This document shows, piece by piece, positions 7,513 through 29,599 of a DNA stretch of 29,599 nucleotides. Numbering within the stretch: the first letter of the stretch is position 1; every line of letters starts with the position of its first letter. Source of the stretch: a virus; the IMG/VR virus record IMGVR_UViG_3300030116_005613, positions 1 through 29,599 of that record, one strand, 5' to 3'. Below the pieces are notes generated by a model. It saw only the letters and a list, made by a program, of their open reading frames with translations. It was not told the origin of the DNA and ran no database searches. Position numbers and translations under genes: made by a program.

Positions 7513-7533
7513 AAAACAAATAAATAACAATTA

Positions 7534-7551
7534 AATATATTATATATTATG
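7534..7551 (+). promoter_or_regulatory. Partial copy of the late start-site motif
   Basis: The last 14 bases (TATTATATATTATG) are identical to the end of the 18-base motif found before the genes at 10715, 25899 and 27607; only the first four bases differ. The ATG of the protease gene forms the end of the motif, as in the exact copies. It lies in the 36-base gap after the tape measure gene, so it could start transcription of the head module. Confidence 0.4.
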
Positions 7552-8262
7552 CCATGTAAAAAATGTGAAAACGGAAAATATAAGCACGGAGAAACAGGAA
7601 ACTGTGAATACGATACAATAGAAGAATGTCGTGAAGCAAACAAAGATTATTATGAAGAAGAAAAAACAACAAAAATTGTTGAATTAGTAATTGAAGATAA
7701 TAATCAAGAATTAACAATAGATGCAATATCTTTGGTATCTGCACCTGCAATAGAACAAGATTTTGTGTTTTTTGGTAAAGATAAACACAATTTGACATTT
7801 GCAAAAGTAGATGAAGAAAAAAGAATGTTGGTTAGTCCTGCATTAATACCAAATAAACAAATATTTAGATATGACGCAAATACGGATAGTGAATATTACG
7901 TTTATTTTAGTCCAGAAACAGTTAGGCAAGCATCAGAACTATATTTAAAACACAATAACCATCATAAAGCAACTTATGAACATCAAGATAGAGTTGCAGG
8001 AGTATTGACAGTTGAAAGTTGGATAAAAGAAGGTGATATGGATAAATCAAAAATGTATGGTTTTGATTTGCCAAATGGCACATGGTTTGTCAAGATGCGT
8101 ATTGATAATAATGATTTGTGGAAAAAAATAAAAGCAGGAGAATTGAAGGGATTAAGTATTGAAGGGTTTTTTGTTGATCGTATGCAAAAAATGAGTGAAA
8201 GACAACCAACAAATCAAGAAATATTAAGTGCATTAAACGAAATAATACAAGAAATCAAATAA
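7549..8262 (+). CDS. Prohead serine protease (XkdF / Peptidase S78_2 type)
   Basis: This protease is expected to cleave scaffold and other head proteins during capsid maturation. The 237-residue protein carries the XkdF-like core from about residue 92 to 208. It begins with MLVSPALIPNKQIFRYD and YVYFSPETVRQASELYLK, then the His segment ATYEHQ (H145), WIKEGDMDKSKMYGF, and finally KGLSIEGFF with the likely nucleophile Ser (S203). His and Ser spaced like this match the herpesvirus-assemblin-like protease group. The N-terminus is unusual: MPCKKCENGKYKHGETGNCE, with a further Cys at about 27, looks like a small metal-binding knob. The gene precedes the acidic scaffold and the capsid gene, the classic order. 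The start is fixed by the upstream repeated motif that ends in this ATG. Confidence 0.8.
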   Translation: MPCKKCENGKYKHGETGNCEYDTIEECREANKDYYEEEKTTKIVELVIEDNNQELTIDAISLVSAPAIEQDFVFFGKDKHNLTFAKVDEEKRMLVSPALIPNKQIFRYDANTDSEYYVYFSPETVRQASELYLKHNNHHKATYEHQDRVAGVLTVESWIKEGDMDKSKMYGFDLPNGTWFVKMRIDNNDLWKKIKAGELKGLSIEGFFVDRMQKMSERQPTNQEILSALNEIIQEIK

Positions 8263-8272
8263 ACTATTAACT

Positions 8273-8286
8273 ATTCTATTATATTA
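8273..8286 (+). promoter_or_regulatory. Related late motif (displaced copy) before the scaffold gene
   Basis: TTCTATTATAT at 8274-8284 shares 11 bases with the core of the repeated late motif, but here the next start codon lies at 8300, some 14 bases further down. If the element is real, the different spacing argues for a promoter rather than a translation signal. In such AT-rich DNA an 11-base partial match is weak evidence. Confidence 0.25.
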
Positions 8287-10614: not shown

Positions 10615-10648
10615 ATTCTAACATTAGTGTTTTTATATATTTTTGATT

Positions 10649-10676
10649 AAGAGGGCAATTAGCTCTCTTTTTCTTT
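10649..10676 (+). terminator. Rho-independent terminator
   Basis: AAGAGGGC (10649-10656) pairs with GCTCTCTT (10662-10669) across a 5-base loop, with one G-U pair. The stem runs into a T-rich tail (TTTTTCTTT at about 10668-10676). It stands in a 100-base gap after the putative tail tube gene and just before the repeated 18-base motif, so it separates two transcription units. Confidence 0.8.
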
Positions 10677-10699
10677 ATAATACAAATAAATTACGTAAT

Positions 10700-10717
10700 T
10701 TTCTATTATATATTATG
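10700..10717 (+). promoter_or_regulatory. Repeated late start-site motif, exact copy 1
   Basis: TTTCTATTATATATTATG, identical to copies at 25884-25901 and 27592-27609, ends with the ATG of the gene at 10715. It lies 24 bases after a Rho-independent terminator, which makes a fresh promoter here attractive. The T-rich context also differs from the A-rich sequence that precedes most other start codons in this genome. Confidence 0.6.
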
Positions 10718-16626: not shown

Positions 16627-16657
16627 ATAAATTTGAGTATTAACTAAATTAAATAAA

Positions 16658-17631: not shown

Positions 17632-17707
17632 ATAACTTTCTTAACATTATAATTGTTAATAACTTTCTAACCAAATTATGTTAGTAATTAATTTTATTGT
17701 ATATTTG
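17632..17707 (+). promoter_or_regulatory. Early control region with direct repeats, dyad and TANNTTTG box
   Basis: This is the core of the 174-base gap 17562-17735. ATAACTTTCT occurs twice (17632-17641 and 17659-17668). Between them, TTAACATTATAATTGTTAA (17641-17659) is a dyad with 6-base arms TTAACA/TGTTAA. A TATATTTG box at 17700-17707 matches the Bacteroidota -7 consensus TANNTTTG, but no clean TTG -33 box is seen at the right distance. The layout suits a regulated early promoter driving 17736 onward. A 15-codon hydrophobic frame at 17588-17635 is not convincing. Confidence 0.5.
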
Positions 17708-22845: not shown

Positions 22846-22853
22846 TATATTTG
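22846..22853 (+). promoter_or_regulatory. TANNTTTG-type promoter box
   Basis: TATATTTG matches the Bacteroidota -7 element and lies in the only gap of this part of the operon, six bases after a long T run. The ATG at 22859 follows five bases later, so a transcript from here would be leaderless or nearly so. No clear -33 box is seen, and such octamers arise often by chance in DNA this AT-rich. Confidence 0.3.
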
Positions 22854-22858
22854 TTTGC

Positions 22859-23215
22859 ATGGAAAAACCAATCTATGCAAATAATCTGCATAAAATTACC
22901 ATAGAAAATTATTTAACACTCATTAAAGAGTTTATAAGAGAAATATCAAATGATAAAAAATTTGATAATTTTCTTAATGTCTATGATACCATTATAGAAT
23001 ATCATAATGGATATGGCAAAAACGTAAAGCATAACAATTGGTATGATTGGATGATGGTGATACCTGTGAATATGTCAGTTATGGTTAATGGGTACTTAGC
23101 TGGTATTGAAACAAAACGAAATCAAAATAAAATAAATTCATATAAAATTCTATTAAATGAAATACTGCAAGATGTTGTAAATAAGATAGAAAAAATACAA
23201 CCAATTAATGAATGA
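22859..23215 (+). CDS. Unknown protein upstream of the sigma-like gene
   Basis: This 118-residue, mostly helical protein has no membrane segment or known motif. It contains KITIENYLTLIKEFIREISN in the N-terminal part and KHNNWYDWMMVIPVNMSVMV in the middle, and ends with a charged helix (SYKILLNEILQDVVNKIEK). The stop overlaps the start of the sigma-like gene by eight bases, so the two are probably translated together. An anti-sigma or sigma-partner role is conceivable from position only. Confidence 0.6.
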   Translation: MEKPIYANNLHKITIENYLTLIKEFIREISNDKKFDNFLNVYDTIIEYHNGYGKNVKHNNWYDWMMVIPVNMSVMVNGYLAGIETKRNQNKINSYKILLNEILQDVVNKIEKIQPINE

Positions 23216-23765
23216 TATATATATAAAAATATCAAAACTTAGTGATAAATTTATAACAATGTGTTATGGTTTAACAACTAACAAAACAGAAATAGAAGAT
23301 GCTGTACAAGAACTAATGTTGTATTTTTTAAATATGAACCCTGAAACATTAAAAAGTATATATGAAAAAGATGGTGAAAAAGGTATTATGGGTTTTGGTG
23401 CTGTTGTATTAAAAAGAGCTTTGACATCAACAAGAAGTCCATTTTATTATAAATACAAAAAATATTATACACATATAGATAGTATATATGAAACAAATAC
23501 AACATTAAATCATAAAACAATAATAAAATATTTAAATAATTTACCTGAAATAAAAGTGGATAATAGTGAAATAATAAAATTAGATCAAATTGATGCAATA
23601 TTGGACACAGTACATTGGTACGATAAAAAAGTATTTGAGTTATATTATTATGACAATAATACATTAGATAGTTTGGCAAAAAAAACAAAAATTAGTAGAA
23701 ATAGTTTATTTACAACAATAGACAAAGTTAGAAGTATAATAAAAAATGAATTGATTGATGAATAG
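23208..23765 (+). CDS. Sigma-70-family-like RNA polymerase factor
   Basis: This 185-residue protein looks like a compact sigma factor that would redirect host RNA polymerase. Residues about 25-80 resemble sigma region 2: NKTEIEDAVQELMLYFLNMN, then GFGAVVLKRALTSTRSPFY. A variable linker follows. Residues 135-182 resemble region 4 with a helix-turn-helix: YDKKVFELYYYDNNTLDSLA, then KKTKISRNSLFTTIDKVRSI. Relatives with the same IEDAVQEL...YFLNMNP pattern are common in Bacteroidota phages and usually labelled sigma-70 family. A late-gene sigma would fit the repeated 18-base motif before late genes. It overlaps its two neighbours by 8 bases each. Confidence 0.7.
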   Translation: MNDIYIKISKLSDKFITMCYGLTTNKTEIEDAVQELMLYFLNMNPETLKSIYEKDGEKGIMGFGAVVLKRALTSTRSPFYYKYKKYYTHIDSIYETNTTLNHKTIIKYLNNLPEIKVDNSEIIKLDQIDAILDTVHWYDKKVFELYYYDNNTLDSLAKKTKISRNSLFTTIDKVRSIIKNELIDE

Positions 23766-24165
23766 TTTTTTTGTTACAGATGCTATATATAAAGAACGTA
23801 TTGCAATATGTAAATCTTGTGATAAGTATATTAAATTTTTGGGAAATTGTTCCATTTGTAAATGTTTTATGAAAATAAAATCAAGAATTGCCAATCAAGA
23901 ATGTGCAGATAATCCAAAAAAATGGATAAAAACAACAGAAGTAAAAAGGATAAAAAATTTACCAAAAGATATTGTAGATGAAGTTTTAAAAATATATCCA
24001 GATATAGAAACAGGTAAAGCAAAAAACATAGAAGTAAAAAAACAAATAATACAATTGTATAATATAATACATAATACAGAATATGATACAAATACTAATT
24101 GTAGAAGTTGTTTAAATACAGTATATAAAGCAATTAAAAATTTATACAACGAACATAAAAAATGA
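23758..24165 (+). CDS. Zinc-ribbon-like phage protein with second Cys region
   Basis: I start this gene at the ATG at 23758 (135 residues); a TTG one codon earlier is less likely. Residues about 15-45 form a likely zinc ribbon: IAICKSCDKYIKFLGNCSIC, then KCFMKIKSRIANQECADNPK, a frequent small-protein module in phages. The C-terminal half (PKDIVDEVLKIYPDIETGKA, then CRSCLNTVYKAIKNLYNEH) has another Cys pair and is helical. DNA, RNA or protein binding is plausible. The start lies within the end of the sigma-like gene and its own TGA overlaps the next ATG (ATGA). Confidence 0.7.
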   Translation: MNSFFVTDAIYKERIAICKSCDKYIKFLGNCSICKCFMKIKSRIANQECADNPKKWIKTTEVKRIKNLPKDIVDEVLKIYPDIETGKAKNIEVKKQIIQLYNIIHNTEYDTNTNCRSCLNTVYKAIKNLYNEHKK

Positions 24166-25503: not shown

Positions 25504-25883
25504 AATTTGTAATAAAGGATAATAAAGATAAGCAAAGTCTGATAAACTATCTTAAAGAATTAGGTAGTGATTATATAGTTGAAGTTAAGAAACAAAAAAA
25601 CAATAGATCAATGATGCAAAACAATTATTATTGGAAATGTATAGTACAAGTATTAGCTGAAGAACTTGGTTACTTTAATGATGAAATGCACGATACACTA
25701 AAAGTTAAATTTGCAAGTGAATGGTCAAGTATAGAAGTAAACAATAAAACAATAGGACTACAAACAGTTAATAGTACTGCAAGAATGAATACTAAGGCAT
25801 TTGAGATATATACAGAAAACATACGTATATGGGCATTGAGTGAATTAAACATAAGATTAATGTTACCAAATGAATATAAATAA
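25500..25883 (+). CDS. NinB-like recombination protein
   Basis: This 127-residue protein resembles lambda NinB, a single-stranded-DNA-binding recombination mediator. The characteristic part is KKQKNNRSMMQNNYYWKCIV at about 30-49, followed by VLAEELGYFNDEMHDTLKVK. The start is taken as TTG at 25500, because the next in-frame ATG (in MMQNN) would cut into the conserved part; this TTG overlaps the methyltransferase TGA. The gene ends the early block; the repeated late motif begins at the next base. Together with NinG it suggests recombination-dependent replication or repair. Family assignment is by pattern only. Confidence 0.6.
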   Translation: MKFVIKDNKDKQSLINYLKELGSDYIVEVKKQKNNRSMMQNNYYWKCIVQVLAEELGYFNDEMHDTLKVKFASEWSSIEVNNKTIGLQTVNSTARMNTKAFEIYTENIRIWALSELNIRLMLPNEYK

Positions 25884-25901
25884 TTTCTATTATATATTAT
25901 G
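25884..25901 (+). promoter_or_regulatory. Repeated late start-site motif, exact copy 2
   Basis: TTTCTATTATATATTATG begins immediately after the NinB-like stop and ends in the ATG of the terminase small subunit gene. It marks the switch from replication to packaging genes. See the copies at 10700 and 27592. A promoter here would give a leaderless or nearly leaderless terminase message. Confidence 0.6.
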
Positions 25902-26258: not shown

Positions 26259-27576
26259 TGAAAAAGGTTGGCAAGATGTTAAGTTTACAAAAACACAGCA
26301 ACGTGCAGTAAAATATTTATTTGATAAAGTAACAACAGAAATATTATTTGGTGGTTCAGCTGGTGGTGGTAAATCATGGTTAGGTTGTGCATGGTTAATT
26401 GTAATGTGTTTGCAATATCCTAAAACAAGACATCTAATGGCACGTTCTAAACTTGATGCACTTAAAAAAACAACACTAAATACATTTTATGAAGTTTGTA
26501 TTACGTATAATCTAAAAGCAAACAAACATTATACATTTAATGGTTCAAGCAACATTATTACTTTTTACAATGGTAGTGAAATAATACTTAAAGATTTATT
26601 TTTATATCCATCAGATAGAAATTTTGACAGTTTAGGAAGTTTAGAAATTACAAGTGCATTTATAGATGAAGCAAACCAAATAACTGAAAAAGCAAAAAAC
26701 GTAGTTGCATCAAGATTAAGATACAAACTTGATGAAAACAATCTAATACCAAAATTATTAATGACGTGCAATCCTGCAAAAAATTGGGTTTACAATCAAT
26801 ACTATCGTCCAGAAAAAGAAGGCAAACAAAAACATTATAGAAAGTTTATACAAAGTTTGGTAGACGATAATGAATATATAAGTAAATATTATAAAAAACA
26901 ATTGCAAACACTTGATGAATTATCAAAGCAAAGATTGTTATATGGTAATTGGGAATATGATGCAACAAAAGATAATCTAATAGAATATGATGCAATATTA
27001 AATTTGTTTGATCAACAAGGCATAAAAGGCAATAAATACATAAGTTGTGATGTTGCACGTTTTGGAAGCGATAAAACGATTATAATATATTGGGAAGGGT
27101 TACATATTAAAAAAATAAAAACGTTGCTTAAAACGTCTATAAATGACGTTGTGGAAGAAGTTAGACAATTACAGCAACAGAATAGTGTACAATTAAGAAA
27201 TATTATAATTGATGAAGATGGAGTGGGTGGTGGTGCAAAAGATTATTTAAGATGTCAGGGTTTTGTAAATAATAGTAAAGCATTAAAAAACGAAAACTAT
27301 CAAAATTTAAAAACGCAATGCTATTATAAATTAGCTGATTTAGTTAATAAAGCTCAAATAGGTATAAGTTGCAATGATATAAATGTAAAACAAAACATTA
27401 TAGAAGAATTAGAACAAATAAGAACTAAAGACGCAGATAAAGATAATAAATTACAAATAATATCTAAAGATAATGTAAAGTCAATAATTGGTAGATCACC
27501 AGATTATGCAGATGCAATTGCAATGCGTATGTATTATGAAATAGATAGCAATTATGGACAATATTTTATATACTAA
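26245..27576 (+). CDS. Terminase large subunit
   Basis: This is the packaging motor and nuclease. The 443-residue protein has Walker A GGSAGGGKS at 36-44 and Walker B with catalytic Glu in SAFIDEAN at about 138-145. The coupling motif is in LLMTCNPAKNW. The C-terminal RNase H-like nuclease shows CDVARFGSDKT near 268-278, IIIDEDGVGGG near 320-330 and SPDYADAIAMR near 418-428, which supply the metal-binding acids. Length and motifs are complete. The start is ATG at 26245, within the end of the small subunit gene. The packaging mode (pac or cos) cannot be read; a circular contig with no obvious terminus would fit headful packaging. Confidence 0.93.
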   Translation: MVQIDEKGWQDVKFTKTQQRAVKYLFDKVTTEILFGGSAGGGKSWLGCAWLIVMCLQYPKTRHLMARSKLDALKKTTLNTFYEVCITYNLKANKHYTFNGSSNIITFYNGSEIILKDLFLYPSDRNFDSLGSLEITSAFIDEANQITEKAKNVVASRLRYKLDENNLIPKLLMTCNPAKNWVYNQYYRPEKEGKQKHYRKFIQSLVDDNEYISKYYKKQLQTLDELSKQRLLYGNWEYDATKDNLIEYDAILNLFDQQGIKGNKYISCDVARFGSDKTIIIYWEGLHIKKIKTLLKTSINDVVEEVRQLQQQNSVQLRNIIIDEDGVGGGAKDYLRCQGFVNNSKALKNENYQNLKTQCYYKLADLVNKAQIGISCNDINVKQNIIEELEQIRTKDADKDNKLQIISKDNVKSIIGRSPDYADAIAMRMYYEIDSNYGQYFIY

Positions 27577-27591
27577 ACTAAATTAATAAAA

Positions 27592-27609
27592 TTTCTATTA
27601 TATATTATG
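27592..27609 (+). promoter_or_regulatory. Repeated late start-site motif, exact copy 3
   Basis: TTTCTATTATATATTATG lies in the 30-base gap after the large terminase gene and ends with the ATG of the tail chaperone gene. It therefore heads the tail operon (27607 through the join to 7512). It is identical to the copies at 10700 and 25884. Confidence 0.6.
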
Positions 27610-29303: not shown

Positions 29304-29599
29304 ATGGCAACATTAACAACAACACTTAGTGAAAGTTTAACATTAAATGGTTCTACAAGAGGTAGTACAAACATAGTAAACACAACAGATATTGTAGATG
29401 TGTTTGAACGTATTTTAACTTGTTCACATTCACAAACAACTACAATTGCAGTATTTGGTTCAACACCTCATGCATCAGCAGGTGCATTAGATGTAGAAAA
29501 CTGTAAATATTTAAGGATTACAAATTTAAGTACAACAGAAGATATAAAACTAGCATTTGTAACAACAAATACTAATTATCAAGTAACATTACGTTCAGG
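29304..29599 (+). CDS. Virion-associated protein, 5' part (continues at base 1)
   Basis: The ATG at 29304 opens a frame that runs off the end of the window. Because bases 29518-29599 repeat 1-82, it continues to the stop at 234-236, giving a 149-residue protein in total. The N-terminal part is Thr/Ser-rich (MATLTTTLSESLTLNGSTRG), then VVDVFERILT-like strands and a possible beta domain with TTTIAVFGSTPHASAGALDV. It starts three bases after the preceding gene. See the entry at 1-236 for the C-terminal part. Confidence 0.85.
   Translation, partial: MATLTTTLSESLTLNGSTRGSTNIVNTTDIVDVFERILTCSHSQTTTIAVFGSTPHASAGALDVENCKYLRITNLSTTEDIKLAFVTTNTNYQVTLRS
29518..29599. repeat. Terminal direct repeat, right copy
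   Basis: Same 82 bases as 1-82 with one mismatch (29597). It shows that the contig closes on itself. Confidence 0.9.

Follow-up and report, generated by a model that had tools for sequence, protein, structure and literature searches.

The window analysed here, a stretch of 29,599 bp with 28% G+C in which the genes used in the analysis all lie on the + strand, raises the question of what an 18-base motif is doing at the start codons of late genes. The first 79 bases (1-79) are repeated at the end of the record (29518-29596), so the record is complete or nearly so, whether as a circle, permuted or terminally redundant. The motif, TTTCTATTATATATTATG, was found exactly at 10700-10717, 25884-25901 and 27592-27609, always on the + strand and with no further copy in the record, and the ATG that ends each copy is the start of an open reading frame (10715, 25899 and 27607). 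The partial copies that the original prediction placed at 7538-7551 and 8274-8284 were also found. TTTCTATTATATATTATG is the sole 18-mer with three occurrences in the window; no 18-mer reached three copies in any of 100 order-3 Markov simulations, and the mean number of exact TTTCTATTATATATTATG copies was 0.0 per simulation over 300 simulations. As set out below, the motif is very probably a late-gene promoter of this marine phage that is read by a sigma factor encoded by the phage itself.

Architecture and distribution of the late element

The 18-mer had been taken as the element. It is a real repeat, but it represents only one half of a bipartite element, and its ATG lies outside the conserved part, at a distance that differs among relatives. 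The conserved unit is [C/A]AA[A/C]TAAA, followed after 10 nt by TTCTATTATATA: a second box, CAAATAAA, CAAATGAA or AAACTAAA, was located exactly 10 nt upstream of the TTCTATTATATA core at all five window sites. CAAATAAA is the box of the protease, scaffold and 10715 sites, AAACTAAA that of the 27607 site and CAAATGAA that of the site before the terminase small subunit gene (terS). The spacing between the centres of box and core is about 20 bp, slightly under the usual 23. The candidate promoters, and a hairpin next to one of them, are as follows.

7517-7546, + strand: late promoter 1, before the gene of an XkdF-like prohead protease (ATG 7549), with an orthologous site in relatives; box CAAATAAA at 7517-7524, 10-nt spacer, −10-like core ATATATTATATA at 7535-7546 (10/12)
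8256-8285, + strand: late promoter 2, before the scaffold-like and major capsid genes (ATG 8300); box CAAATAAA at 8256-8263, core TTCTATTATATT at 8274-8285, core to ATG 14 nt
10643-10680, + strand: terminator-like hairpin AGAGGGCAATTAGCTCTC with a T-run, immediately upstream of late promoter 3
10683-10712, + strand: late promoter 3, before gene 10715 and directly after the terminator-like hairpin; box CAAATAAA at 10683-10690, core TTCTATTATATA at 10701-10712
25867-25896, + strand: late promoter 4, before terS (ATG 25899); box CAAATGAA at 25867-25874, core TTCTATTATATA at 25885-25896
27575-27604, + strand: late promoter 5, before gene 27607 and right after the terminase large subunit gene; box AAACTAAA at 27575-27582, core TTCTATTATATA at 27593-27604

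At the 10715 and 7549 sites the upstream box is wholly intergenic in the window, and hence it is not a coding by-product; it also recurs at fixed spacing at independent sites, some of them fully intergenic. The region around the hairpin (10621-10690) gave a fold of −14.2 kcal/mol, and the pyrimidine run of the hairpin is conserved in relatives. In the window and its relatives the core usually stands 2 or 4 nt before the ATG, yet the gap varies between 2 and 41 nt, which places the start codon outside the element. This variable distance ruled out a mere start-codon context, and it does not sustain the earlier suggestion of a combined promoter and translation-start element: in relatives the ATG moves or leaves the motif, while the motif stays.

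Searches of IMG/VR with the large terminase (TerL) and sigma genes returned hundreds of relatives, from which 28 long, near-full-length contigs were taken, and sites were scanned for with thresholds of at least 7/8 for the box and at least 10/12 for the core. The scan for box plus core showed five sites on the + strand and none on the − strand of the window, and 108 sites on the gene strand versus two on the other strand in the 29 genomes; simulated sequences contained 0-2 such sites per ten genomes versus 35 in the real ones. The same five late positions carry the element in the 28 near-full-length relatives, and among 42 gene starts compared in the window and these relatives the core precedes only the five late ones. 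A core of at least 11/12 was present at 8/29 orthologs of the protease gene 7549 (16/29 at 10/12 or more), 20/27 of the scaffold-like gene 8300, 22/27 of gene 10715, 4/24 of terS 25899 and 22/28 of gene 27607. The terS count is low because many relatives have an extra gene inserted before terS, the promoter staying at the head of the unit.

The product of the inserted gene starts MKLKINELKPN or MKQQVK and appears ParB-like by eye (for example L007 2571, L045 107 and L078 1112). Many relatives also have, after the terS-side promoter, a leader of about 30 nt in which an inverted repeat (GATTGAATAATCAATC) and a T-run precede the ATG (L086 6024, L087 5254, L098 1991, L104 3226, L129 4442 and others), whereas the window is without it; this leader might act on the packaging genes as an operator or attenuator.

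In an exact two-box search of IMG/VR, which matched at least 228 loci, 226 of the 228 listed carry markers of this phage family, and an open reading frame starts within 30 nt of 237/237 exact two-box sites among the IMG/VR matches listed. Neither the more AT-rich variant TTTTATTATATA nor the variant TTCTCTTATATA had any IMG/VR match when combined with the AAACTAAA upstream box; the absence of TTTTATTATATA, together with the simulations, rules out chance in AT-rich DNA. The element thus consists of two boxes at fixed spacing, on the coding strand, upstream of transcription units and at the starts of late units only, which strongly supports the reading of the motif as a phage-specific late promoter; its presence at the same positions in relatives and its covariation with the phage sigma factor, described next, lend further support.

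The predicted phage sigma factor and its covariation with the core

The proposed reader of the promoters is encoded just before the late block.

23208-23765, + strand: gene of a predicted ECF-type sigma factor of 185 aa

The sigma gene is present in 28/28 relative contigs as well as in the window. The profile of the sigma70-ECF superfamily, TIGR02937, was matched by 40/40 sigma homologs (best 5.6e-12), and Sigma70_r4 was weakly matched by 30/40. The window sigma itself matched TIGR02937 over residues 13-182 with an E value of 1.5e-6 and 28 bits, below the curated cut-off of 42.9, and its Pfam and NCBIfam matches are likewise under curated cut-offs. An AlphaFold2 model of moderate confidence (pLDDT 76.5, pTM 0.44) predicted helices resembling sigma2, joined through a floppy linker to a helix-turn-helix of sigma4. 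The top Foldseek matches of this model in the PDB were the ECF sigmas SigL, SigH, RpoE and SigW, with a probability of 1.00; the full-length E value was only 3e-3 because the orientation of the sigma domains is uncertain, and sigma4 alone superposes on region 4 of sigmaE (2h27) at 1.6 Å. Searched against PDB sequences, the sigma profile yielded weak matches only (FliA at E 0.35), and no sigma homolog was found among 50,697 cultured phage records. The end of the sigma gene is overlapped by the gene of a small cysteine-containing DUF6171-like protein (23755-24165), a homolog of which occurs in 29/29 genomes; this protein could work together with the sigma or against it.

The sequence of the core varies with that of the sigma. 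Most sigmas have the loop S-x-R-S, the R of which is Arg76 in the window, and TCTATTA is the core sequence at their promoters; where Asn, Tyr, Thr or His replaces Arg76, the box is rewritten to TACATTA or TATATTA. In G006, G007 and G023, for instance, the sigma loop is CKNNA and TACATTA stands at all promoters of each genome. Among contigs fetched irrespective of the motif, R76 was accompanied by C at core base 3 in 172/185 sites and a residue other than R76 by a base other than C in 21/22 sites (Fisher 6e-19, the sites not being independent). When contigs were picked solely by a box with TTACATTATATA or TTATATTATATA, with the sigma loop covered, Arg76 was absent in 20/20 new contigs, as predicted, and Asn, Tyr or His was found instead. 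Position 76 is the best-associated of the 185 sigma columns (99% versus 7% Arg between the promoter classes). On the tree, residue 76 changed about three to four times, and all or nearly all of the independent pairs go in the expected direction; as there are only three such pairs, formal phylogenetic significance was not reached (sign test p = 0.25). A counterexample is the window protease site, which has A at base 3 despite Arg76 in the window sigma. T at core base 3 with the AAACTAAA box had no match in all of IMG/VR. We propose that Arg76 contacts core base 3 (C). Aligned by sequence, Arg76 would lie about one helical turn beyond the equivalent of Thr440 (region 2.4: LKRALT versus IRQAIT), a location that would fit a contact at −13.

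Host-type boxes, rival explanations and the proposed switch

Promoters of the primary sigma of Bacteroidota have a −7 box, TAnnTTTG (PMC9723704), and two such boxes were located in the window as follows.

17700-17707, + strand: host-type −7 box TATATTTG, read from the sequence, at the head of the early block
22846-22853, + strand: host-type −7 box TATATTTG, shortly before gene 22859, the gene next to and upstream of the sigma gene

TAnnTTTG precedes gene 22859 in 23/29 genomes versus 1.7 expected from shuffles, and the box at 22846-22853 is proposed to be the promoter of sigma expression. TTG-N17-22-TAnnTTTG occurs close to the 17700 position in most relatives. A scan of the window alone for two-box TTG-N-TAnnTTTG showed no + strand enrichment (two on + versus 11 on −), the host-type signal being visible only on comparing orthologous positions. 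The late promoters lack the TAnnTTTG −7 box and carry TTCTATTATATA instead; generic host promoters were ruled out for them, since the boxes differ. In most relatives the host-type box before 22859 (window 22846-22858) ends about 5 nt before the ATG, and transcripts of the sigma operon may therefore be leaderless as well. TAnnTTTG was also seen upstream of gene 16658 (window 16628-16657) in 14/24 relatives, which suggests that the late block contains a host-type promoter, near lysis-type genes.

It is improbable that the late promoter is read via a host sigma or another phage activator and that the phage sigma covaries by shared descent only. Such a reading draws on the small number of independent changes (three pairs) and on the presence of another conserved small protein (23755-24165) beside the sigma. 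However, the late sequence differs from the TAnnTTTG box of the host (PMC9723704), the best-associated position, 76, is in the part of the sigma expected to read the −10 element, and the out-of-sample prediction held in 20/20 contigs. A T-rich, ATG-linked translation-start element that directs ribosomes on mRNAs with a short leader or none and plays no part in transcription would account for the three exact copies that end in ATG and for the dominance of the 2- and 4-nt spacings, but it is very improbable, given that the core persists with the ATG 12-41 nt away and is preceded, at 10 nt, by a second box, and it leaves the covariation of the sigma without explanation. Least credible is a repeat family with a role in replication, packaging or recombination that stands before genes by happenstance, since the sites, although they flank the terminase genes, keep strict gene orientation and lie immediately upstream at five separate late units and none elsewhere.

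We hold with high confidence, on sequence evidence, that host RNA polymerase with the phage ECF-type sigma (23208-23765) reads the bipartite late promoter. What the sequence shows is the bipartite element, where it lies and how it is conserved, together with the predicted fold of the sigma and the covariation; from these we infer binding, start points, timing and leaderless translation along the following lines. Early in infection, the host primary sigma would read TAnnTTTG promoters, one of them just upstream of the 22859-sigma pair, from which host RNA polymerase would make the phage sigma (sigma2 plus sigma4). The new sigma would then read the five late promoters and so feed the packaging, head and tail genes. 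With TATTAT set as −12 to −7, the C would fall at −13, the upstream box would span −33 to −26 and +1 would be at about the A of the ATG at 2-nt spacing and just before the ATG at 4-nt spacing. Because +1 would fall at about the A of the ATG, four of the five window promoters may give mRNAs that are leaderless or nearly so, and the 8274 promoter would give a short leader. The leaderless mRNAs of the original prediction are therefore plausible by geometry at 4/5 window sites, whereas a leader is expected at the 8274 site (14 nt to the ATG) and in many relatives. A leaderless product is thus not obligatory for this promoter, since the scaffold promoter and several relatives have leaders.

A wider proposal, which we regard as evenly balanced, is that in a widespread uncultured group of marine phages, probably on Flavobacteriia, late mRNAs without leaders are made with the help of an ECF-type sigma of the phages' own, under a rule in which Arg76 goes with C(−13) and Asn, Tyr or His allow A, the sigma and its promoters co-evolving. 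The main reading gives, on sequence evidence only, a whole early-to-late gene switch for a large group of uncultured phages, with its regulator named, and the residue-to-base rule is open to test by one mutagenesis experiment. Bacteroidota, in which small orthogonal sigma/promoter pairs are scarce, would gain such pairs, and the joint change of a sigma and all its promoters could be studied in a natural example. The leaderless prediction bears on translation start by Bacteroidota ribosomes, which is not reliant on Shine-Dalgarno pairing.

Host and comparison with known systems

By large terminase, the nearest cultured relatives are Flavobacterium phage 11b (53%) and Cellulophaga phage phi10:1 (51%), the genome layout of which differs from that of the window; no close DNA match was found in cultured phages. 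These terminase relatives, the TAnnTTTG boxes and the A-rich leaders point to a host among the Flavobacteriia. A search of cellular genomes returned two metagenome bins with phage contigs, GTDB-labelled Pseudooceanicola and Euryarchaeota; the contigs of this phage family in them are L446 (PAPR01000004.1) and L447 (PBGL02000003.1), and both bins are most likely mis-binned.

No report of the late promoter or of a late sigma of a Bacteroidota phage was found in the open-licence literature. Phage sigmas that switch on late genes are already known as a kind; the open literature searched describes no ECF-type sigma that combines, in uncultured phages of small size and high abundance, a defined two-box promoter close to the start codon with a residue-base rule.

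Phage sigmas for middle and late genes include gp28 and gp33-gp34 of SPO1 and gp55 of T4; gp55 uses a −10 element, TATAAATA, alone and needs the sliding clamp. The SPO1 and T4 sigmas are alike in role to the one proposed here, in that a phage sigma takes the host core RNA polymerase to late promoters unlike those of the host. The sigma described here is a small two-domain ECF-type protein with a two-box promoter, and the likeness is one of role rather than a demonstrated sequence relation. With the ECF sigmas (TIGR02937; SigH, SigL, RpoE and SigW) it shares size, the order sigma2, linker and sigma4, the predicted fold, the profile and two-box promoters. It differs from them in being phage-borne, in its boxes (CAAATAAA / TTCTATTATATA rather than the GGAAC / GTC-TCTAA type) and in that no anti-sigma partner was identified for it. 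Promoters of the Bacteroidota primary-sigma type (PMC9723704) are those used by the early region and by the gene before the sigma gene, not by the late promoters, and in Flavobacterium psychrophilum only 5.5% of mRNAs are leaderless (PMC9723704). In Deinococcus-Thermus, a −10 box adjoining the open reading frame is a proven leaderless design (PMC12340547). The late promoters resemble it in having a −10-like element a few bases before the ATG, which implies leaderless transcripts; Deinococcus-Thermus uses the host primary sigma for this, whereas a dedicated phage sigma is proposed here.
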